Origin: Natronobiforma cellulositropha
GTDB lineage: Archaea > Halobacteriota > Halobacteria > Halobacteriales > Natrialbaceae
Direction: 5' to 3'
DNA length: 64,000 nucleotides
Assembly (NCBI RefSeq): GCF_025629245.1
Contig: NZ_JANZXN010000029.1
Coordinates: forward strand, 1-64,000
The translations under genes and the position numbers were made by a program. This document shows, in pieces, positions 32,550 to 41,624 of the stretch; the stretch's first letter is position 1; each line of letters starts with the position of its first letter. The notes below the pieces were generated by a model. The model was not told the origin of the DNA and ran no database searches. It saw only the letters and a list, made by a program, of their open reading frames with translations.

Positions 32550-33083
32550 GTGTATCGCTCGCCGCTCGTTCTCGGGCTGGCCGCCGTCTTCGCCGGTCTC
32601 ACGGCGCTGTTGTTGATCGGTGCCGTCGTCAGTGCCCAGCCCGTCGCGGCCGCCGTCGCCGTCCCCTTCGGCGTGACGAGTTACTTCATGTACTACCACG
32701 GCAGCGGGAAACTCGCCCGTGCGGCCTACCGGAGCCACGCCAGCCGAACACGCCGCGGTGAGCGCGCTCGAGGTGGCTTCGGGGCTGGTCCGCGTGCCAG
32801 CCGTGGACCGCGGACGCGCGCCGAGCGTGCGGCCCGTGCTGGCGGCGTCGGCGCAGGTCCACGCGGCGGACCACGCCGTGGCGGCACCGGTCGCGCGCCG
32901 ACCTCGCAGCCGGGACCGACGCGCACACAGGCGCGGCGGACGCTGGGCGTGAGCGAGGCGGCGGACGCCGGTGAGGTCAAGCGCGCCTACCGGGAGAAAG
33001 TAAAGGAGGTCCACCCCGACCGCGGCGGCGACGAGGAGGCGTTCAAACGCGTGACGGCCGCCTACGACCGCCTCTCGGAGTGA
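32550..33083 (+). CDS. Membrane J-domain protein (DnaJ-like)
   Basis: A 177-residue protein from GTG 32550 with a TATA-like ttttaca about 27 nt upstream. Two N-terminal TM helices (about residues 8-28 and 31-48) precede a Gly/Arg-rich basic linker (about residues 65-125). The C-terminal J domain (about 128-177) has KRAYREKVKEVHPDRGGDEEAF, with the HPD tripeptide needed to stimulate Hsp70 intact. Family members of this architecture exist in haloarchaea. The very basic linker is unusual in a halophile. The 3' end overlaps the next gene by 22 nt. Confidence 0.88.
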   Translation: MYRSPLVLGLAAVFAGLTALLLIGAVVSAQPVAAAVAVPFGVTSYFMYYHGSGKLARAAYRSHASRTRRGERARGGFGAGPRASRGPRTRAERAARAGGVGAGPRGGPRRGGTGRAPTSQPGPTRTQARRTLGVSEAADAGEVKRAYREKVKEVHPDRGGDEEAFKRVTAAYDRLSE

Positions 33084-33484
33084 TCGATCTCCCCCTCGAG
33101 TTCGCGGCTGCACTCGAGCAGCGTCTCGACGGGGGTCGAGGCGCTCCACCTGATCGCACCGCTCCGGCGGTCGTACTCGACGAGTCCACAGTCGGCGAGT
33201 TTCGGCACGTGGTTGTGATAGAGGTCGACGAGGACGGGGTCGCGCTCGGCGGCGTCGACGCGCTCGCTCGAGACACCCGTTTCTCGACAGACGACCGTCG
33301 TCGCGAGCGCGTCGAGGCTCGCGAGGTCGTGGTCTGCGAGGTAGTAGAGGACGTCCCGTCGGCGGTGGTGGCTGAGAAGCCGTAGCGCCTCGTCGATCCT
33401 CGCCCGGCCGGGGTCTGCGGATGCGCAGCGACGTACGGGCGTCGACGACTGTGCGTCGGTGTCCTCCGTGCGACGGTCGACCAT
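33062..33484 (-). CDS. DUF7344 winged-helix protein
   Basis: A 140-residue soluble protein of the DUF7344 type: IDEALRLLSHHRRRDVLYYL, then VVCRETGVSSERVD, LVDLYHNHVPKLADCGLVEYD. No membrane tail, unlike the 1228-1821 protein. Convergent with the J-protein gene, whose end it overlaps, and divergent from the CHAT locus (185 nt away), so it could be a regulator of that locus. Confidence 0.75.
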   Translation of the reverse strand: MVDRRTEDTDAQSSTPVRRCASADPGRARIDEALRLLSHHRRRDVLYYLADHDLASLDALATTVVCRETGVSSERVDAAERDPVLVDLYHNHVPKLADCGLVEYDRRSGAIRWSASTPVETLLECSRELEGEIDHSERRS

Positions 33485-33669: not shown

Positions 33670-34911
33670 ATGATCGACGATGACGACGGGTCCTCGACGC
33701 CGTCGAGTTATCCGCGAGCCGACACTTCAAACGCCGTCTCGGCCGTACCTCGTCTCTCGAGCGTCACGCTCGTCCAGCAGGTCGCCGAGGAGGCGGGGTG
33801 TTCGCCCCTCGAGTTACCGCCGTTGAACGAGACGGTCGACGCCGATGCGCTCGACGCGCTGGTCGAGCACGCGCCAGCGGACGCCAGATGGCCGGAGATA
33901 TCCTTCGCGTACGCAGGCGTCCGGGTGCGTGCCACGCCCGATGGTACGGTGACCGTCACCCACGAACCACCACCGAACGACGAGCGCTGGCCGCACGTCA
34001 CTCCGGTCGACGCCGAGGAGGGGGCAGACGTCGCGATGGCGGTCGTCTTCGAACTCGCCGCCCGGTCGGGGACCGATCCGGCGCTCGTCCGATCGACACT
34101 CGAGGGAATCGTCGACCTCGAGGCGCTCGCGTCGTTGAACCGTGACCGGGCGAACGGCATCGCTCGCACCGGCGCGACCGTTCGGTTCTCGGCGTTCGGT
34201 CAGGACGTGGCCGTCTCGCCGACGGAGACGATTTCGATGGGGTCGACGCTGGGACGTCTCAAACAGCGCGGAGGAAACGTCCTCGTCGTCGGTGCCGTCC
34301 CCGACGCGCTGGTCGACGCCGTCAGTTCGACGCTGCTCGGTGCGTCCGGAGCAGGCCACCGACACCTCTTCGCACTCCTGGACCGCGACCTCGAGACCGT
34401 CTCGGAGCGACTGGGACCACCGACGCTCGGCTCACCGAGTCCCACGCCGAGCGGACCGACACACGTCGTCAACCACGCCACCACCTCGCGTTCGGCTACC
34501 GAGCCACAGGTGAGCGCCGGAACGCCGCCGCCGTCGGTGACGGACGTTTCCGGCGACGTCGACGCGTTCGCGAGCGCCGTCGCGGACGCCCTCTCCGACC
34601 TCGGTGGCGACGACGGCGGGGACTCCGCGTCGGTACGCGTCTGTCTCGACTCCCTGCGCCCGGTCCTCGAGAGTCGCGACGAGGCGGGCGTCCGCGCGTT
34701 CCTCGAGCCGATCTACGCCTCGGTTCGTGAAACCGCGGCGCTCGCTCACTACGTGCTTCCGGTCGAGCGCGACACGCCGGCGGTCGCCGCGCTCGAGGAC
34801 GCCTTCGACGCGACGGTCGAACTGCGTATCAACGCCACCGTCCCGGAACAGCGCTGGCACCTGCGAGACGGCGCGTACACGACGCCGTGGTTCGCGGTCG
34901 ACGACCGATGA
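33670..34911 (+). CDS. HalOD1-domain protein with KaiC/RecA-like C-terminal part
   Basis: A 413-residue protein upstream of the first CHAT gene. Residues about 33-100 fit the HalOD1 output domain (QQVAEEAGCSPLELPPL, then an FAYAGVRVRATPDGTVTV hairpin). Later a Rossmann/RecA-like stretch appears (NVLVVGAVPDALVDAVSSTL) without a Walker A lysine, and a C-terminal domain (AHYVLPVERDTPAVAALEDA). This looks like the haloarchaeal DUF7504 class of degenerate RecA-like proteins. Its stop overlaps the CHAT gene start (ATGA at 34908), so the two are translated together. It is probably a sensor or regulator for the CHAT protein, by context. Confidence 0.7.
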   Translation: MIDDDDGSSTPSSYPRADTSNAVSAVPRLSSVTLVQQVAEEAGCSPLELPPLNETVDADALDALVEHAPADARWPEISFAYAGVRVRATPDGTVTVTHEPPPNDERWPHVTPVDAEEGADVAMAVVFELAARSGTDPALVRSTLEGIVDLEALASLNRDRANGIARTGATVRFSAFGQDVAVSPTETISMGSTLGRLKQRGGNVLVVGAVPDALVDAVSSTLLGASGAGHRHLFALLDRDLETVSERLGPPTLGSPSPTPSGPTHVVNHATTSRSATEPQVSAGTPPPSVTDVSGDVDAFASAVADALSDLGGDDGGDSASVRVCLDSLRPVLESRDEAGVRAFLEPIYASVRETAALAHYVLPVERDTPAVAALEDAFDATVELRINATVPEQRWHLRDGAYTTPWFAVDDR

Positions 34912-37043
34912 GCCGTTCGACACCCGCTCCGGGTGAGCCATCGATGCAGTCGGTGACGCCGACGTTTACGCCCGACGACGACCGCCCCGGCCTGACCGTC
35001 GTCGACCCCATCGAGAACAAACAGTTTCCACTCGAGACCGCCGCCCCGGTCGACCTCGAGACGGCGCCAGCCGAGGGGTTCTCCTTCCCGGTCGACGGCG
35101 CGACGAGCTTCGTCACCGACCGGCTGGCGCTGCCCTACGTCGTCCCGGTCTACGCCCGCGACGCCGAGGGTGACCTGTGTTTCGAAGGCGAACACCACGC
35201 CAACGAGACGCTTCCAGCGGGCGAGTACCTCCTCGAGCTGATGGCACCGGTCAGACTCTACGTCTCCGTCGACGCCGAGGTGACGGTCCGCTCGAGCGAC
35301 GACCGGCTGACCATCGAGTTCGACCGGCCGACGCGCGTCCGGCTTGGGGCACGCTCACAGCACGACGTGCCCGCGGGGACCGTCCGGACGACGGCCGAGC
35401 CAGCGGCGCTCGCCGCGGCCATCTCGACGTTCGGCTCCGCGCTGAAGACGACCGCACCCGACCGAGCGTTCCCGACGTTGCGCGGCCACCCACCGCGACT
35501 CGTCCTCGACGACACCCTCGAGATTCCGGCCGAGTTCGATCCGCCCGAGACGGGCATCAGGCTCGTCGTCCCGCCCGACACCGGTGCCCTCTACGCGGCG
35601 GCTCCGCTCGCGTACTACCTGGGCGCGACGGTCTCCGTCGGCGACGAGCCACGCCTCGAGACCGACCGCGGCTTCACCGATCCGCTCGGACAGGGTGAGC
35701 ACGACCTCGAACGCTCACTCGAGAGGGTGCTCCGACACTGTTTCTTCCTCGACTGTGTCGTCAGAACCGAGGGCCTGTACCGGACCGCGCTCTACGAACG
35801 GCGCGTCGTCGAAGAGCGCGTCGACCTCGACTTCGCCGAACTGTACGCGATGGACCCGGCGGCGCGACTCGAGGCGTACCGATCGGTGCCGGTCGAGACC
35901 GTCGAGGACCTCCACCCGGCCTGGTCGCTCGTCACCTACGTGACGCCCGAGTCGAGACACGCCCGCTCGCTCCCGTTTCTCGCGAACGACCTCTCGATCG
36001 TCAGAGCCGCGCCCACCGACTCACAGTCACCTGCTCAGTCGACCCCCTCGACGCGCGCGCAGACGCCCTTCTCGGCCGACGTCGACGCGTTCGTCCGTGC
36101 CGTAAGCGACGACGCGAGCCGAGAGCGACGCCTCGAGACCGGCGCGTTCGTCTCGCCGCCCGACGCGGACGCGTTCGAGCGCGCCTGGCTCGGCGAGGGC
36201 GTTCCGGTCGGGGCGAACAAACTCCTCGACGGGGCGTTCGAGAACGCCCTCGCGGAGTCGCCCGAACCGGAGACCATCGAGATCACGGTCGCCTGTACCG
36301 ACGACGCGATGGCCGAGGAACTCGAGGGCAGTCTCTACGGCGGCCGCGACGAACTCCCCTTCGAGGTCAGCGTCCACCGGCGGCCGTCGGTCGCCGAACT
36401 CGAGTCGTTGCTCGCCGCCGAGGTCGACTTCTTCCACTACGTGGGTCACGTCGAAGACGGCGCGTTCGTCTGTGACGACGGGACGCTGTCGCCAGCGACG
36501 CTCGAGTCGGTCGGCGTCGACGCCTTCCTGCTCAACGGCTGTCGGTCCTACGACCTCGGCGTCGACCTGATCGAGGCGGGCGGCGTCGGCGGCATCGTCA
36601 CGCTCAGCGAGGTCGGCAACCCCGACGCCGTCGCCATCGGACGGCTGATCGCCCGGCTACTGAACGGCGGTTTCACACTTCGGACCGCGCTCTCTGTGGC
36701 ACAGCGCACCCGGCTGGTTGGCGCACAGTACGTCGTCGTCGGCGACGGCAGCGCGGCGGTCACCCAGTCGGGCGGCGGCATCGCGAACCGGTGTCACGTC
36801 ACTCCCGTCGGCGACCGCTACCGGGTGACGATTCACGTCTACCACGCACAGGCCGGCATGGGCGGTCTCTACATCCCCTACGTCGACGGCGTCGACCACC
36901 ACTTCGTCGCCGGCGGCGACCTCCCGCCACTCGAGCTCTCGCGTGACGAACTGCGTCGCTTCCTGGCGCTCGAGGAGATTCCCGTCGAGGTCGACGGCGA
37001 GTTCTACTGGTCGAGCGACCCGCTGCTCGAGCGGGCGCTGTGA
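34908..37043 (+). CDS. CHAT-type (caspase-like) putative protease, copy 1
   Basis: A 711-residue protein. Residues about 1-370 form an unrecognised, mainly beta/mixed domain starting near PDDDRPGLTVVDP. A low-complexity linker (about 368-390) follows. The C-terminal part (about 440-650) has the CHAT pattern: FFHYVGHVEDGAFVC with H510 and H514, FLLNGCRSYDLGVDLIEAGG with C545, then GGIVTLSEVGNPDAVAIGRL and a helix FTLRTALSVAQRTR. H514/C545 is the predicted dyad. ATG 34908 overlaps the HalOD1 stop. Substrate unknown; the 44-residue TM peptide gene 31 nt downstream is a candidate. Confidence 0.75.
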   Translation: MSRSTPAPGEPSMQSVTPTFTPDDDRPGLTVVDPIENKQFPLETAAPVDLETAPAEGFSFPVDGATSFVTDRLALPYVVPVYARDAEGDLCFEGEHHANETLPAGEYLLELMAPVRLYVSVDAEVTVRSSDDRLTIEFDRPTRVRLGARSQHDVPAGTVRTTAEPAALAAAISTFGSALKTTAPDRAFPTLRGHPPRLVLDDTLEIPAEFDPPETGIRLVVPPDTGALYAAAPLAYYLGATVSVGDEPRLETDRGFTDPLGQGEHDLERSLERVLRHCFFLDCVVRTEGLYRTALYERRVVEERVDLDFAELYAMDPAARLEAYRSVPVETVEDLHPAWSLVTYVTPESRHARSLPFLANDLSIVRAAPTDSQSPAQSTPSTRAQTPFSADVDAFVRAVSDDASRERRLETGAFVSPPDADAFERAWLGEGVPVGANKLLDGAFENALAESPEPETIEITVACTDDAMAEELEGSLYGGRDELPFEVSVHRRPSVAELESLLAAEVDFFHYVGHVEDGAFVCDDGTLSPATLESVGVDAFLLNGCRSYDLGVDLIEAGGVGGIVTLSEVGNPDAVAIGRLIARLLNGGFTLRTALSVAQRTRLVGAQYVVVGDGSAAVTQSGGGIANRCHVTPVGDRYRVTIHVYHAQAGMGGLYIPYVDGVDHHFVAGGDLPPLELSRDELRRFLALEEIPVEVDGEFYWSSDPLLERAL

Positions 37044-37074: not shown

Positions 37075-37209
37075 TCAGGTCGTCGCACCGCCGTTGCCGG
37101 CGGCGACCGTGCCGACCTGTGAGACCACCAGCGCGGTCGTGAGCAGAGCACCCGTGAGCCGTGGGTGCTCGAGCAGGAACGTTCGGATCGGTGTCTTCGT
37201 ATCGGACAT
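37075..37209 (-). CDS. 44-residue single-TM peptide, copy 1 (GNGG end)
   Basis: ATG 37207-37209. Starts MSDTKTPIRTFLLEHPRLTG, continues ALLTTALVVSQVGTVAAGNG and ends GATT. One TM helix, then a small-residue C-terminus after a possible AA/GN junction. TATA (ttatat, about 37237-37242) lies about 30 nt upstream. It is the same length as the peptide at 39643-39777 and shares R9, L12, H15-P16-R17, A21, L27, S30-Q31 and G38-N39-G40-G41. It faces the CHAT gene tail to tail. I regard it as real because both its position and sequence are repeated. Resembles short haloarchaeal families with HPR...SQ...; function unknown. Confidence 0.75.
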   Translation of the reverse strand: MSDTKTPIRTFLLEHPRLTGALLTTALVVSQVGTVAAGNGGATT

Positions 37210-37327
37210 CGCGACCTACCAACGTCGTGAACGATCTTATATCTAGCGCCGCGTGTCTGTCACGTTTGCCGACCGGTTCTCGGCTGCTCGCCGGCTCTTC
37301 GTTACTTACGTGACTGTCTCGACCTGG

Positions 37328-37348
37328 CCTATCCGCGAGGTATTCGTA
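37328..37348 (+). promoter_or_regulatory. Promoter-proximal box of CHAT cassette 2
   Basis: cctatccgcgaggtattcgta, the counterpart of the box at 33626-33646 with one mismatch in the first 20 bases; 43 nt before the ATG at 37371. Its preservation when most of the upstream gene is gone supports a regulatory role. Confidence 0.6.
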
Positions 37349-37370
37349 GCGCTCGCGCCTATGGCTGGAA

Positions 37371-37502
37371 ATGATCGACGAGACCGCACTGTTCGACCCG
37401 ACGAGCGACGGACACGCCGCTCGCACAACCAGACACACCTCGCCCCCGGTGTCCGGGCGTGACACCGACACCACTGGTCTCCCGGCGGGTGATCCCGGGT
37501 GA
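37371..37502 (+). CDS. 43-residue leader peptide, remnant of HalOD1 gene start
   Basis: ATG 37371 gives MIDETALFDPTSDGHAARTT and ends LPAGDPG. Its TGA (37500-37502) overlaps the GTG of CHAT copy 2 (37499-37501), as the full HalOD1 gene overlaps CHAT copy 1. Like that gene it begins with MID plus an acidic residue, and it sits behind the same 20-bp box. No HalOD1 or RecA-like domain remains. It may be a degraded remnant kept for translational coupling, or a functional leader. Not a domain-bearing gene. Confidence 0.55.
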   Translation: MIDETALFDPTSDGHAARTTRHTSPPVSGRDTDTTGLPAGDPG

Positions 37503-39634
37503 CGCCGGCCGACCGACGCGGCTCCGTCGACGCCGATTCACCGCCGCTCGAGTACCAGCGACCGGTCGCGCCGACGTTTCGCCCCGACGACGACCGCCCC
37601 GGTCTCACCGTCGTCGACCCCGTGAGAAACAAGCGCTATCCGCTGCAGACGTCCGACCCCGTGACCCTCCACGAGAGTGACCCCGACGCGTTCTGCGTTC
37701 CCGTCGACGTGGCGACGGCGTTTACGGCCGCGTCGCTGTTGTTGCCGTACGTCGTCCCGACGGTCGTCCGCGACCGCCACGGCCGGATGCTCACCGAGGT
37801 CGAACACAACGCCTACGAACCGCTCGGCGACGGCGAGTACCACCTCGAGTTGATGACGCCGATCAGGCTCTGCCTGCGTGTCGAGGGGCCGCTCACCATC
37901 GCCTCCTCGGACCGGCGGCTGGCGTTCGCCTTCGATGGCCCGACGCGCCTCCACCTCGGCGCACGCTCACCGCACGAGCGCCCGGCGGCCACCGTCACGA
38001 CCACGACCGAACCAGCGGCCCTCGCGGCGGCCGTCTCGACGTTCGGCTCCGCGCTGAAGACGACGAGCCCCGAGCGCTCGCTGCCGACGCTGCGCGGCCA
38101 CCCGCCCCGCCTGGAACTCGGCGACGCCCTCGAGATTCCAGCCACCGTCGAACCACCGGCGACGGGGGTCAGGCTCGTCGTCCCCGACGACCGGGCGGCC
38201 GTCTACGCGGCGAGTTCGCTCGCGTACTACCTGGGCGCGACCGTCACCGTCGGCGACGAGCCACGCCTCGAGACCGACCGTGGGTTCACCCACCCGCTCG
38301 GGAGGGGTGGACCGGCGTTCGAACGCTCGCTCGAGGAAGTCCTCGAGCAGCTGTTTTTCGTGGACTGTCTCGTCCGGACGGAGGGGCTGTACCGGATCGA
38401 CCTCGACGAGCGCCACGCCGTCGAAGAGCGTCTCGACGCCGACTTCACCGAACTGTACCACATGGACCTCTCTGCACGCCTCGAAGCGTATCTCTCGCTC
38501 CCGTTCGAGGCGGTCGCCGACGTCTTCCCACCCTGGCAGCTGGTGACGCACGTCACCGACGACCCCGAGAACGCCCGTCTGTTACCGTTTCTCGCGAACG
38601 ACCTCTCGATTATCCGGAGCGGAGACACCGACACCCCCTCGAGCGCTGGCCCACCCGCGCTCGGTCTCGAGGAATTCGTCCGGTCTGCCGCACCGTCGGA
38701 CAGCGCCGGTCTCGGTCTCGACGCGTTCGTCTCGCCGCCCGAAACCGACGCCATCGAACAGGCCTGGGCGGGACCTGGCGTCCCAGTCGGGGCGAACAAA
38801 CTCCTCCCGGCGGGCTTCGAACACGGACTCACCGCGGCGGCCTCGAGCGACCGCATCGAGATCACGATCGTCTGTAACGACCCGCGGATGCTCGCGGAGG
38901 TCGACGGGGTGGCCTACGGCGACCGGGAGGAACTGCCCTTCGACGTCACGGTTCACCGGGAGGTGACGGTCGAGGAGTTACGCGGGATTTTCGCGGCCGA
39001 TACCGACTTCGTACACTACGTCGGCCACGTCGAGGACGGTGCGTTCGTCTGCCGGGACGGAACGCTTCCAGCGGAGTCGCTGACCGACGTGGGCGTCGAC
39101 TTCTTCCTGCTCAACGGCTGTCTCTCCTACGAGATCGGCGTCGAGTTGATCGAGGCGGGCAGCGTCGGCGGCATCGTCACGGTGAGCGAGGTCGGCAACC
39201 CGGACGCGGTGGCCGTCGGCCGCCTCGTCGCCCGCCTCCTCAACACGGGCTTTACGCTCCGCTCTGCGGTCGACGTCGCCCGGTCGTACCGGCTGGTCGG
39301 CGCGCAGTACGTCGTCGTCGGCGACGGTGGCGCGGCGGTCACCCAGTCGGGCGGCGGCGTCCCGAACGTCTGTCACGTCGAGTCCGCCGACACCGACGGG
39401 GACCGGCCCTACCGCGTCCGTCTCCAGCTCTACCACTGTTCGGACACCGGCATGGGTTCGGCGTACATCCCCTACATCGACGGCATCGACCGCTACTTCC
39501 TCGTCGGCGGCGAACTCCCGACGCTCTCACTGTCCGGGTCGGCGCTCACTCGCTTCCTCCGACTCGAGGGTATCCCGGTCGAGTTCGACGGCGAGTGGTA
39601 CTGGTCGACTGACGAGGTATTCGAAGAACTGTAG
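37499..39634 (+). CDS. CHAT-type (caspase-like) putative protease, copy 2
   Basis: A 711-residue paralogue of 34908-37043, similar over the whole length, with long shared blocks such as DDDRPGLTVVDP, TFGSALKTT, LPFLANDLSI and VPVGANKLL. Predicted dyad H510 (HYVGHVEDGAFVC) and C541 (FFLLNGCLSYEIG) is intact. The GTG start overlaps the leader ORF's stop. The N-terminus is seven residues longer before the conserved DDDRPG. Expected to be an active protease if copy 1 is. Differences cluster in the linker (about 370-400), where duplicated proteases can diverge in activation. Confidence 0.75.
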   Translation: MTPADRRGSVDADSPPLEYQRPVAPTFRPDDDRPGLTVVDPVRNKRYPLQTSDPVTLHESDPDAFCVPVDVATAFTAASLLLPYVVPTVVRDRHGRMLTEVEHNAYEPLGDGEYHLELMTPIRLCLRVEGPLTIASSDRRLAFAFDGPTRLHLGARSPHERPAATVTTTTEPAALAAAVSTFGSALKTTSPERSLPTLRGHPPRLELGDALEIPATVEPPATGVRLVVPDDRAAVYAASSLAYYLGATVTVGDEPRLETDRGFTHPLGRGGPAFERSLEEVLEQLFFVDCLVRTEGLYRIDLDERHAVEERLDADFTELYHMDLSARLEAYLSLPFEAVADVFPPWQLVTHVTDDPENARLLPFLANDLSIIRSGDTDTPSSAGPPALGLEEFVRSAAPSDSAGLGLDAFVSPPETDAIEQAWAGPGVPVGANKLLPAGFEHGLTAAASSDRIEITIVCNDPRMLAEVDGVAYGDREELPFDVTVHREVTVEELRGIFAADTDFVHYVGHVEDGAFVCRDGTLPAESLTDVGVDFFLLNGCLSYEIGVELIEAGSVGGIVTVSEVGNPDAVAVGRLVARLLNTGFTLRSAVDVARSYRLVGAQYVVVGDGGAAVTQSGGGVPNVCHVESADTDGDRPYRVRLQLYHCSDTGMGSAYIPYIDGIDRYFLVGGELPTLSLSGSALTRFLRLEGIPVEFDGEWYWSTDEVFEEL

Positions 39635-39642
39635 CTCCTCTT

Positions 39643-39777
39643 TCAGCTGATCACTCCGCCGTTTCCGGTCGGGTACACGATCGCCTGCGAGAGGATCAGT
39701 GTGGCACCGAAGGCGGCGCTCAGTACTCGTGGGTGACTCTGGAGAACCGACCGAACGTACGCTGCTTGCTTCGACAT
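39643..39777 (-). CDS. 44-residue single-TM peptide, copy 2 (GNGG end)
   Basis: ATG 39775-39777. Begins MSKQAAYVRSVLQSHPRVLS, TM helix SAAFGATLILSQAIVYP, end TGNGGVIS. Length, HPR motif, SQ pair and GNGG positions are identical to the peptide at 37075-37209. Stop codon eight nt after the CHAT copy 2 stop on the other strand. A TATA-like tattac (about 39801-39806) lies upstream. An in-frame ATG further upstream would add 34 poorly supported residues. Confidence 0.75.
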   Translation of the reverse strand: MSKQAAYVRSVLQSHPRVLSAAFGATLILSQAIVYPTGNGGVIS

Positions 39778-40022: not shown

Positions 40023-41624
40023 ATGACCCGTGACCGGGCCCTCCTCGAGCGGGCCCTGGAACGTGGCGAACAGGACGGTGGCAGCGTCGAATTCAAAGAA
40101 CGCCTCGCTCGAGACGTTCACCTGGTCGACGGCCGACGGGAGAGTCTGGCTGCCCAACTTCGCCACCGCGTCCTCTCCGGTGAGGGCGAGGCGACCTACG
40201 TCGTCGGCGTCACCGACGACGGCGGTCTCGCCGGTATCGACCCCGACACCTTCTCCGAGACGATGGACGTCCTCTCGTTGCTGGCCGAGGAGGCCGACGC
40301 CCACATCGCCGACGTCGACACCTGGGGTATCGGCGGCGGCCTGGTCGGTCTCGCGACGGTCTGCGATGGGGCCGTCCTCGAGAGCGACGACCAGCACATC
40401 GTCGTCGGCACGGCCGGCCACGTCGACCACGGCAAGAGTACGCTCGTCGGCTCGCTCGTCACCGGACGGGCGGACGACGGCGACGGACAGACGCGCGCCT
40501 ACCTCGACGTCCAGCCCCACGAGGTCGAACGCGGTCTCTCCGCGGACCTCTCCTACGCCGTCTACGGCTTCGACGAGGACGGACCCGTCCACGTCAGAAA
40601 TCCCGACCGGAAGGCCGACCGGGCACAGATCGTCGAAGCGGCCGACCGCCTGGTCTCGTTCGTCGACACCGTCGGCCACGAACCCTGGCTCCGGACGACC
40701 ATCCGCGGCCTGGTCGGCCAGAAACTCGACTACGGCCTGCTCGTCGTCGCCGCCGACGACGGCCCGACGCGGACGACGCGCGAACACCTCGGCGTCCTGC
40801 TCGCGACGGAACTGCCCACCCTCGTCGCCATCACCAAGGTCGACGCCGTCTCCGAGGAACGCGCAGACGAGGTCGAACGCGAGGTCGAACGCCTCCTGCG
40901 CGAGGTCGGCAAATCACCCCTCCGGGTCGCCCGCCACGGCGTCGACGCCGCACTCGAGGAGATCAGCGAGACCGTCGTTCCCATCGTCGAGACCAGCGCG
41001 GTCACGATGGCCGGTCTCGACCACCTCGACGACCTCTTCTCTCGCCTGCCGAAGACCGGCGACGACGACGGCGAGTTCCGCATGTACGTCGACCGGAGCT
41101 ACTCGGTCACCGGCGTCGGTGCCGTCGCCTCCGGCACCGTCATGTCCGGCGAGGTCGAAGCCGGTGACGAACTCCTCCTCGGACCGATGGCCGACGGCCG
41201 TTTCCTCGAGGTCGAGGTCCGCTCGATCGAGATGCACTACCACCGCGTCGACCGGGCGCGCGCCGGCCGGATCGTCGGCATCGCGCTCAAAGGTGTCAAA
41301 GAGAGCGCGATCGAACGCGGCATGGTCCTCCTGCCCGCCGACGCCGACCCGACGCCCGTCAGGGAGTTCGACGCCGAAGTGATGGTGCTCAACCACCCCA
41401 CCCGGATCGGCGACGGCTACGAGCCGGTCGTCCACGTCGAGACCATCGGCGAGGCCGCCGCCTTCTACCCCGAGAATGGGCGCTTACTCCCCGGCGACAC
41501 CGGCGAGACCCGCGTCCGCTTCAAGTTCCGCCCCTACCTCCTCGAGGAGGGCCAGAAGTTCGTCTTCCGCGAGGGCAGAAGCAAAGGCGTCGGCACCGTC
41601 ACCGGCGTCCACCCGCTCGAGTGA
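40023..41624 (+). CDS. GTPBP1/2-like translational GTPase
   Basis: A 533-residue GTPase of the EF-Tu superfamily. An N-terminal extra domain (residues about 1-120) precedes G1 GHVDHGKS (132-139). G3 reads DTVGHEPW and G4 reads ITKVD. G5 is SAVTM. Domains II and III follow, with CTD strands near PVREFDAEVMVLNHPTRIGDG. Archaeal relatives of human GTPBP1 have this architecture. TATA (ttttact, about 39993-39999) about 27 nt before the ATG. Cytoplasmic; precise role in translation or RNA turnover is not known. Confidence 0.87.
   Translation: MTRDRALLERALERGEQDGGSVEFKERLARDVHLVDGRRESLAAQLRHRVLSGEGEATYVVGVTDDGGLAGIDPDTFSETMDVLSLLAEEADAHIADVDTWGIGGGLVGLATVCDGAVLESDDQHIVVGTAGHVDHGKSTLVGSLVTGRADDGDGQTRAYLDVQPHEVERGLSADLSYAVYGFDEDGPVHVRNPDRKADRAQIVEAADRLVSFVDTVGHEPWLRTTIRGLVGQKLDYGLLVVAADDGPTRTTREHLGVLLATELPTLVAITKVDAVSEERADEVEREVERLLREVGKSPLRVARHGVDAALEEISETVVPIVETSAVTMAGLDHLDDLFSRLPKTGDDDGEFRMYVDRSYSVTGVGAVASGTVMSGEVEAGDELLLGPMADGRFLEVEVRSIEMHYHRVDRARAGRIVGIALKGVKESAIERGMVLLPADADPTPVREFDAEVMVLNHPTRIGDGYEPVVHVETIGEAAAFYPENGRLLPGDTGETRVRFKFRPYLLEEGQKFVFREGRSKGVGTVTGVHPLE

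Follow-up and report, generated by a model that had tools for sequence, protein, structure and literature searches.

The stretch of DNA analysed here (the 'window', 64,000 nucleotides (nt) of contig NZ_JANZXN010000029.1 in assembly GCF_025629245.1 of the haloarchaeon Natronobiforma cellulositropha) contains two small genes, each encoding a peptide of 44 amino acids (peptides A and B), that lie convergent with two genes for predicted CHAT/separase-like cysteine peptidases. A first-pass annotation, made from the sequence alone, had singled out these open reading frames (ORFs) as 'twin' transmembrane peptides, and its description of their layout is confirmed: both ORFs lie where it had placed them (Table 1), they are of equal length and align without gaps, and the peptidase genes stop at positions 37043 and 39634, which leaves 31 and 8 nt to the ends of the convergent peptide genes. 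The two peptides are indeed similar, but they represent a family that extends across an entire archaeal class rather than a local pair. Both match the Pfam family DUF7503 (PF24335), a third and canonical copy is found in the same genome (C9:25056-25178), likewise convergent with a CHAT gene, and DUF7503 is the conserved convergent partner of the haloarchaeal CHAT/separase-like peptidase.

Peptides A and B are identical at 15 of 44 positions (M1, S2, R9, L12, H15, P16, R17, A21, L27, S30, Q31, G38, N39, G40 and G41), including every residue that the annotation had listed as shared (R9, L12, HPR, A21, L27, SQ and GNGG), and that number was reached by none of 20,000 shuffles of peptide B. The match to DUF7503 is clear for peptide A (43.2 bits in a whole-genome scan) and borderline for peptide B (26.0 bits in the same scan, against a cut-off of 27). 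Relative to the conserved core of the family, peptide A retains HPR, the Gly, SQ, the Gly at -5 and the Ala at -1 (the conserved Ala that precedes the C-terminal tail being position -1), with Leu in place of both Met and Phe. Peptide B, whose start is a downstream ATG within a mechanically called ORF of 78 residues, is the more divergent copy: it retains HPR, the Phe, SQ and GNGG, and has lost the Gly at -5 and the Ala at -1, with Tyr at -3 and Thr at -1. Chance or spurious ORFs were considered as an explanation and are ruled out by the match to DUF7503, the class-wide occurrence of the family, purifying selection and the shuffle test.

The window contains a lineage-specific tandem duplication of a peptidase-peptide pair, because the two peptidases are sisters (with a Shimodaira-Hasegawa-like approximate likelihood ratio test (SH-aLRT) support of 99 in a tree of 116 proteins) and because a Natronococcus locus (L118) carries a single pair between flanking genes of the same kinds (a DUF7344 gene, a HalOD1-DUF7504 gene and a gene for an EF-Tu-like GTPase). 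Since that duplication the peptides have diverged to 34% identity.

Table 1. Genes of the duplicated locus in the window, with the evidence for each assignment
Feature	Position	Strand	Evidence and remarks
DUF7344 protein, divergent neighbour	33062..33484	-	Pfam PF24035, gene order; also present at Natronococcus locus L118
HalOD1 + DUF7504 (inactive-KaiC-like) protein, 413 amino acids, first gene of the module	33670..34911	+	Pfam PF18545, PF24336
Predicted CHAT/separase-like cysteine peptidase 1	34908..37043	+	61% identical to copy 2; sister in tree, support 99
Peptide A, DUF7503 member, convergent with peptidase 1	37075..37209	-	Pfam 44.7 bits (cut-off 27); TATA-like AT box 5' of ATG
Predicted CHAT/separase-like cysteine peptidase 2, catalytic pair H510 + C541	37499..39634	+	Conservation, AlphaFold model, structure matches
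Peptide B, divergent DUF7503 member, convergent with peptidase 2	39643..39777	-	Pfam 27.3 bits (cut-off 27)
EF-Tu-like GTPase, downstream flank	40023..41624	+	Pfam, gene order; same flank at single-pair locus L118

Convergent pairing across the Halobacteria

The link between peptide and CHAT gene that the annotation had noticed in the window is real, and it holds throughout the class. When loci were picked by the peptide alone, a convergent CHAT gene lay within 1500 nt in 76 of 80, and 75 of 77 pairs were spaced by no more than 200 nt; of the four exceptions two lie on short contigs (L138, L148), one is a displaced gene (L145) and one has no CHAT gene in the 16 kb covered (L153). A larger set of 140 loci, some of them entered in duplicate, contains 136 DUF7503 genes, of which 130 face a convergent CHAT gene no more than 1500 nt away. 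Among these 130 pairs the two genes overlap in 14, are separated by 0-50 nt in 77 and by 51-200 nt in 34, and lie more than 200 nt apart in 5.

A profile scan placed DUF7503 over its cut-off in 334 of 391 Halobacteria genomes, and homologs of the window's peptidase 2 were found in 365 of the same 391 (the search scored at most two candidates per genome, so that CHAT copy numbers are lower bounds). All 334 genomes with the peptide fall among the 365 that are CHAT-positive. In the 26 CHAT-negative genomes (a set derived by hand from the genome-scan listings) DUF7503 exceeded its cut-off in none, with two weak matches (G001 and G231); the hypergeometric probability of such nesting, which ignores phylogeny, is 4.6e-25. 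In a phylum-wide draw, 44 of 294 genomes were over the DUF7503 cut-off, all of them from the window's own order, and among the matches listed outside that order there was a single weak one, below the cut-off (G431). Pairs occur on chromosomes and on haloarchaeal plasmids, and DUF7503 was found in none of 50,697 phage records. An anti-phage defence system was also considered and rejected, given those phage records and the lack of a PADLOC match (2023 library, E up to 1) for peptide A, a canonical DUF7503 peptide, the HalOD1-DUF7504 protein or either peptidase, the PADLOC result being weak evidence.

The pair stays together while its flanks change from lineage to lineage (glp genes, ribosomal S7 or guaB, named from sequence or Pfam), and a fixed operon context is not supported, as contexts vary between lineages. 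Few neighbours are conserved: as a rule there is a DUF7504 gene 5' of the peptidase, to which some lineages add a response regulator. The advice in the first-pass annotation to search beside DUF7504 genes was well placed: such a gene directly precedes the CHAT gene in 39 of 96 loci, a count from which the profile may miss divergent members. A response regulator (REC-HalX or REC-PAS) often adjoins DUF7503, and its family is present in 28 of the loci whose neighbouring genes were clustered. In Haloferax and its relatives a REC-HalX regulator lies just 5' of DUF7503 and in the same direction (L105:7221-7808 and equivalents), and in other lineages the adjoining regulator is of the REC-PAS type. 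At four loci (L114, L123, L161 and L164) a second, co-directional CHAT gene lies beyond DUF7503, with no convergent DUF7503 of its own in view, and in three of them a response regulator also intervenes before it.

Features of the peptide and the peptidase

Alignment of 122 distinct peptides (identical copies only were removed, as also from the 129 peptidases described below) gave a pattern that consists of a variable, mostly polar start, the motif [YFW]L-x-x-[HN]P[RK]M-x-G-x-LFT, a hydrophobic stretch, the motif [ST]QAG-x-[VA]-x-A and a short tail. In the [HN]-P-[RK] element the Pro is invariant (122/122), and Arg or Lys and His or Asn are each found in 121 of 122; the core Gly, Phe, Gln, Gly and Ala are each kept in 118-119. 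At the end of the core, 119 peptides have Ala at -1, 119 have Val or Ala at -3 and 118 have Gly at -5. A Gly-xxx-Ala/Gly pair, of a kind suited to helix packing, occurs in 117 of 122. The tail that follows is 7-9 residues long in 114 peptides and uncharged in 98. Tandem DUF7503 genes were seen at two loci (L138:5078-5434 and L140:5021-5330), and the copies at the latter have identical core and tail.

The annotation had drawn attention to the C-terminus, and specifically to GNGG, as conserved and as a possible protease recognition site or exposed signal. The end does look constrained, but nothing supports a protease recognition site, and GNGG marks one DUF7503 subtype rather than the family: 93 of 122 distinct peptides end in GP, and 19 of the remaining 29 have a GG-containing end, as do the window copies, which end GNGG-x-x-x. 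The GNGG of the window recurs within one peptidase subclade, and four members keep a GNGGGTW end despite a 5-residue insertion. Of 26 non-GP rows in the tree, 20 (16 GG and 4 other) fall in one strongly supported peptidase clade that includes both window copies, with the other six divided between a clade of three and three scattered rows. A long DUF7504 gene (more than 380 amino acids) accompanies 9 of 21 GG-type peptides versus 1 of 90 of the GP type, in a comparison whose related rows are not independent; the window's gene is of this long type and carries HalOD1.

Nor is the tail the most conserved part of the peptide, a distinction that belongs to the HP[RK]M-x-G-x-LF...[ST]QAG-x-x-A core. 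From 121 peptides, 70 close pairs of equal length, both members ending in GP, were used to estimate the ratio of nonsynonymous to synonymous substitution rates (dN/dS), which came to 0.37 for the part that precedes the core, 0.06 for the core itself and 0.27 for the inside of the tail; the final two codons gave zero, a value partly due to the choice of pairs. Purifying selection on the core is thus strong, whereas the tail interior is relaxed; positive selection in the tail, tested with the same ratios, was not found. Upstream of the gene (in 119 of the 122 peptides, one having no usable ATG and the others too little upstream DNA, with start codons picked by script) the proportion of A and T climbs from about 45% to 84% between -40 and -31, a fixed distance from the ATG, as would be predicted for a TATA box and a nearly leaderless transcript.

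The description 'transmembrane peptide' is one of two that suit the sequence. The hydrophobic stretch is compatible with a membrane helix, but a signal peptide followed by an AxA-type site and a tail of 7-9 residues fits equally. The features expected of Sec-type export (small residues at -3 and -1, a hydrophobic core and a basic n-region) are present family-wide and in peptide A, and are missing from peptide B.

For the peptidase, the CHAT call of the annotation holds, in that the AlphaFold model of peptidase 2 (with a predicted local distance difference test (pLDDT) score of 88) has a caspase-like fold; peptidase activity is a prediction. Foldseek matched the model to SAVED-CHAT and separase at an E of 5e-07, and the best structure matches (SAVED-CHAT, gingipains R and K, DdvA, separase and Craspase) range from a VIA Z score of 16.6 to about 12, with fold matches as a whole reaching down to a Z of 11. 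Pfam CHAT (PF12770) matches 10 of 50 homologs at E up to 1 (best 1.1e-5) and not the window proteins, and no sequence relatives of the peptidase were found in the PDB at E up to 1. The predicted catalytic pair, H510 and C541, is present without exception in the 129 distinct homologs (129 of 129), including those from loci that lack DUF7503. An R-x-x-P-x-x-RGHPP motif at residues 193-203 of peptidase 2, outside the peptidase domain, is also invariant and is conserved like the catalytic residues. The DUF7504 part of the window's HalOD1 protein gave a high-confidence predicted model, for which the best Foldseek matches are KaiC, RecA and BcsE; as modelled, DUF7504 folds as a KaiC/RecA-like domain.

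Candidate functions of the pair

The partnership of peptide and peptidase is a dedicated one; everything beyond 'dedicated partner' we infer. The interpretation that we favour, with about even confidence, is that DUF7503 is a membrane-inserted partner, and most likely a proteolytic substrate, of a separase-like peptidase switch. DUF7503 would reside in the cytoplasmic membrane through its single hydrophobic segment, with the N-terminus inside, and a cytoplasmic peptidase would cut it as its putative substrate. Separase and gingipains cut after Arg or Lys, and because these are the nearest folds, the best candidate for a cleavage site is [HN]-P-[RK]|M, at the predicted cytoplasmic face of the membrane. 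The KaiC-like/HalOD1 protein would gate the peptidase upon some signal, and cleavage would set free, or activate, the hydrophobic segment together with the short tail on its outer side, the whole acting as a proteolytic membrane switch.

A number of observations weigh against a membrane substrate of this kind. DUF7503 is not found over its cut-off in 31 of the 365 CHAT-positive genomes, and at L153 the 16 kb around a DUF7503 gene contain no CHAT gene. In one genus (g57), five loci (L192, L194, L197, L206 and L207) keep the catalytic pair with no recognisable DUF7503, and DUF7503 therefore cannot be the peptidase's only substrate; in all five peptidases Phe504 is replaced by Leu, the sole distinguishing residue at the threshold used. 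Inspection of nine loci with DUF7503-less CHAT genes brought up no convincing diverged small ORF beside them, apart from a displaced gene at L196. Covariation between peptide and peptidase (mutual information over 116 pairs) was noise-like, with no coherent signal. The positive-inside rule would by itself place basic residues ahead of a hydrophobic segment, and the AxA-like end is accommodated equally well by a signal peptide. Finally, N567, in a column that we take to correspond to the S1 Asp of separase, is Asn in 123 of 129 homologs, and because the putative S1 position is mostly Asn the guess of cleavage after Arg or Lys is weakened.

The main rival, which we consider rather unlikely, is that DUF7503 is the precursor of a secreted peptide signal: a Sec signal peptide would be cut by signal peptidase after the conserved Ala to release the tail of 7-9 mostly uncharged residues, ending in GP or GG-x-x-x, and the convergent peptidase and the KaiC-like/HalOD1 parts would serve as receptor, processor or response machinery. 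With its Ala at -1, Val or Ala at -3 and Gly at -5, the end of the core looks like a textbook cleavage region, the tail (short, mostly uncharged, variable in its interior and fixed at its end) resembles a short mature peptide, and the insertions mentioned above sit between the Ala and the terminal GNGGGTW. However, the tail is about as relaxed as the N-terminal region (0.27 as compared with 0.37) and without diversifying selection, the core is conserved far beyond the needs of export, no importer or membrane receptor is seen in the module, and peptide B, with its Tyr and Thr, breaks the cleavage rule. We know of no gene-encoded peptide signal from any archaeon. That DUF7503 is such a signal, with nearly every haloarchaeon exporting a 7-9 residue tail that the peptidase and its KaiC/HalOD1 partner process or read, is a proposal that we regard as unlikely.

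Work on cell density in Haloferax volcanii bears on the same question from both sides. DdfA, which we take to be HVO_2176, is a HalOD1 protein, and the NCBIfam DdfA model matches the HalOD1 domain of the window protein. HVO_2176 is given as a HalOD1 protein in the accessible part of one paper (PMC7824242), and the accessible part of another describes a density signal of 3 kDa or less, the response to which needs DdfA (PMC12240190). That signal survives proteinase K according to the same partial text (PMC12240190), which argues against an ordinary linear peptide.

Also improbable, in our estimate, is an arrangement in which DUF7503 remains uncut and binds the peptidase at the membrane, either to anchor it there or to inhibit it. 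Such a role fits the observation that DUF7503 depends on the presence of CHAT and not vice versa, and the conserved G..F..[ST]QAG..A residues, together with the Gly-xxx-Ala/Gly pair, would suit helix packing; the genus without DUF7503 nevertheless retains a peptidase with an intact catalytic pair, distinguished, at the threshold used, solely by the change of Phe504 to Leu.

Protease-activated gasdermins provide an analogue for a cell-death switch, in which loss of the polar N-terminal part would free a self-associating hydrophobic peptide that permeabilises the membrane. The caspase-family fold of the peptidase and the helix-packing motif of the peptide are in keeping with such a role, as is a strong caspase-like activity in Hfx. 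volcanii for which, from the accessible part of the report, no gene is known (PMC3615174). That activity, however, is described there as acting on Asp-P1 substrates (LEVD, VEID, IETD), with none measurable on those of the trypsin type (PMC3615174), and the near-universal presence of the pair, which has no PADLOC match, is unlike that of patchy defence systems; a cell-death role is possible but weak, and we hold it to be very improbable. That convergence serves only antisense regulation of the peptidase mRNA, with the peptide incidental, is hardly credible, since the abutting or overlapping stops of many loci are set against strong purifying selection on the amino acids and the retention of the peptide at the wider spacings given above.

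Relation to known systems and significance

Both window peptides belong to DUF7503, which, like DUF7504, is a named family to which no function has been assigned; the proteins themselves are members of known families. A literature search brought up no paper recognised as describing the pairing of peptidase and peptide, and the names 'DUF7503' and 'DUF7504' were not found in the papers searched. The module and its class-wide convergent pairing appear to be undescribed.

Several known systems nonetheless resemble parts of it. The CHAT protease of Craspase has a dedicated protein target, Csx30. The SAVED-CHAT filament protease (8tl0) and Craspase (TPR-CHAT/Csx29) share with the window peptidase a caspase-like fold and a His/Cys pair (Z 16.6 and about 13), but the window peptidase has two extra N-terminal parts, no SAVED or TPR domain seen and no CRISPR context, and its partner is a hydrophobic peptide of 44 amino acids. 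Separase (C50) and gingipains R and K (C25) resemble it in fold at a Z of about 15-16, with one separase match that covers residues 173-618 of the model, whereas identity to the peptidase is about 10-17%. The transmembrane anti-sigma factor DdvA (8rw5, 8rot) offers a related domain (Z 15.7) in a setting of membrane signalling, but the membrane part would here be a separate peptide. Arbitrium, Phr and SHP are peptide signals of bacteria (Bacillota) that derive from short precursors and act on RRNPP-type receptors; DUF7503 is like them in its short precursor, hydrophobic leader, short variable C-terminal part with a fixed end and large adjacent partner gene, and unlike them in that the partner is a predicted peptidase rather than an RRNPP-type receptor and that the tail is without positive selection. 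Finally, HalOD1 proteins with an inactive KaiC domain were already listed by Galperin et al. 2018 (PMC5847659, accessible part); the window's first gene has the architecture of these HalOD1-iKaiC signalling proteins, and DUF7504 resembles KaiC by fold, but the peptidase and the small peptide are not mentioned in that part of the paper.

The DUF7503 partner is easily missed in annotation: of 14 plasmid records with a match, 7 list no gene there, 6 list a 'hypothetical protein' and 1 is unannotated (the plasmid gene table being incomplete). What the locus presents is a caspase/separase-family peptidase with a tiny dedicated partner, membrane-bound or exported, kept across most of a large archaeal class, and with it a genetically tractable case of regulated proteolysis in Archaea. 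It bears on which gene, if any of the peptidase family, underlies the protease-driven stress and death responses of haloarchaea, and on whether Archaea use gene-encoded peptides as signals.

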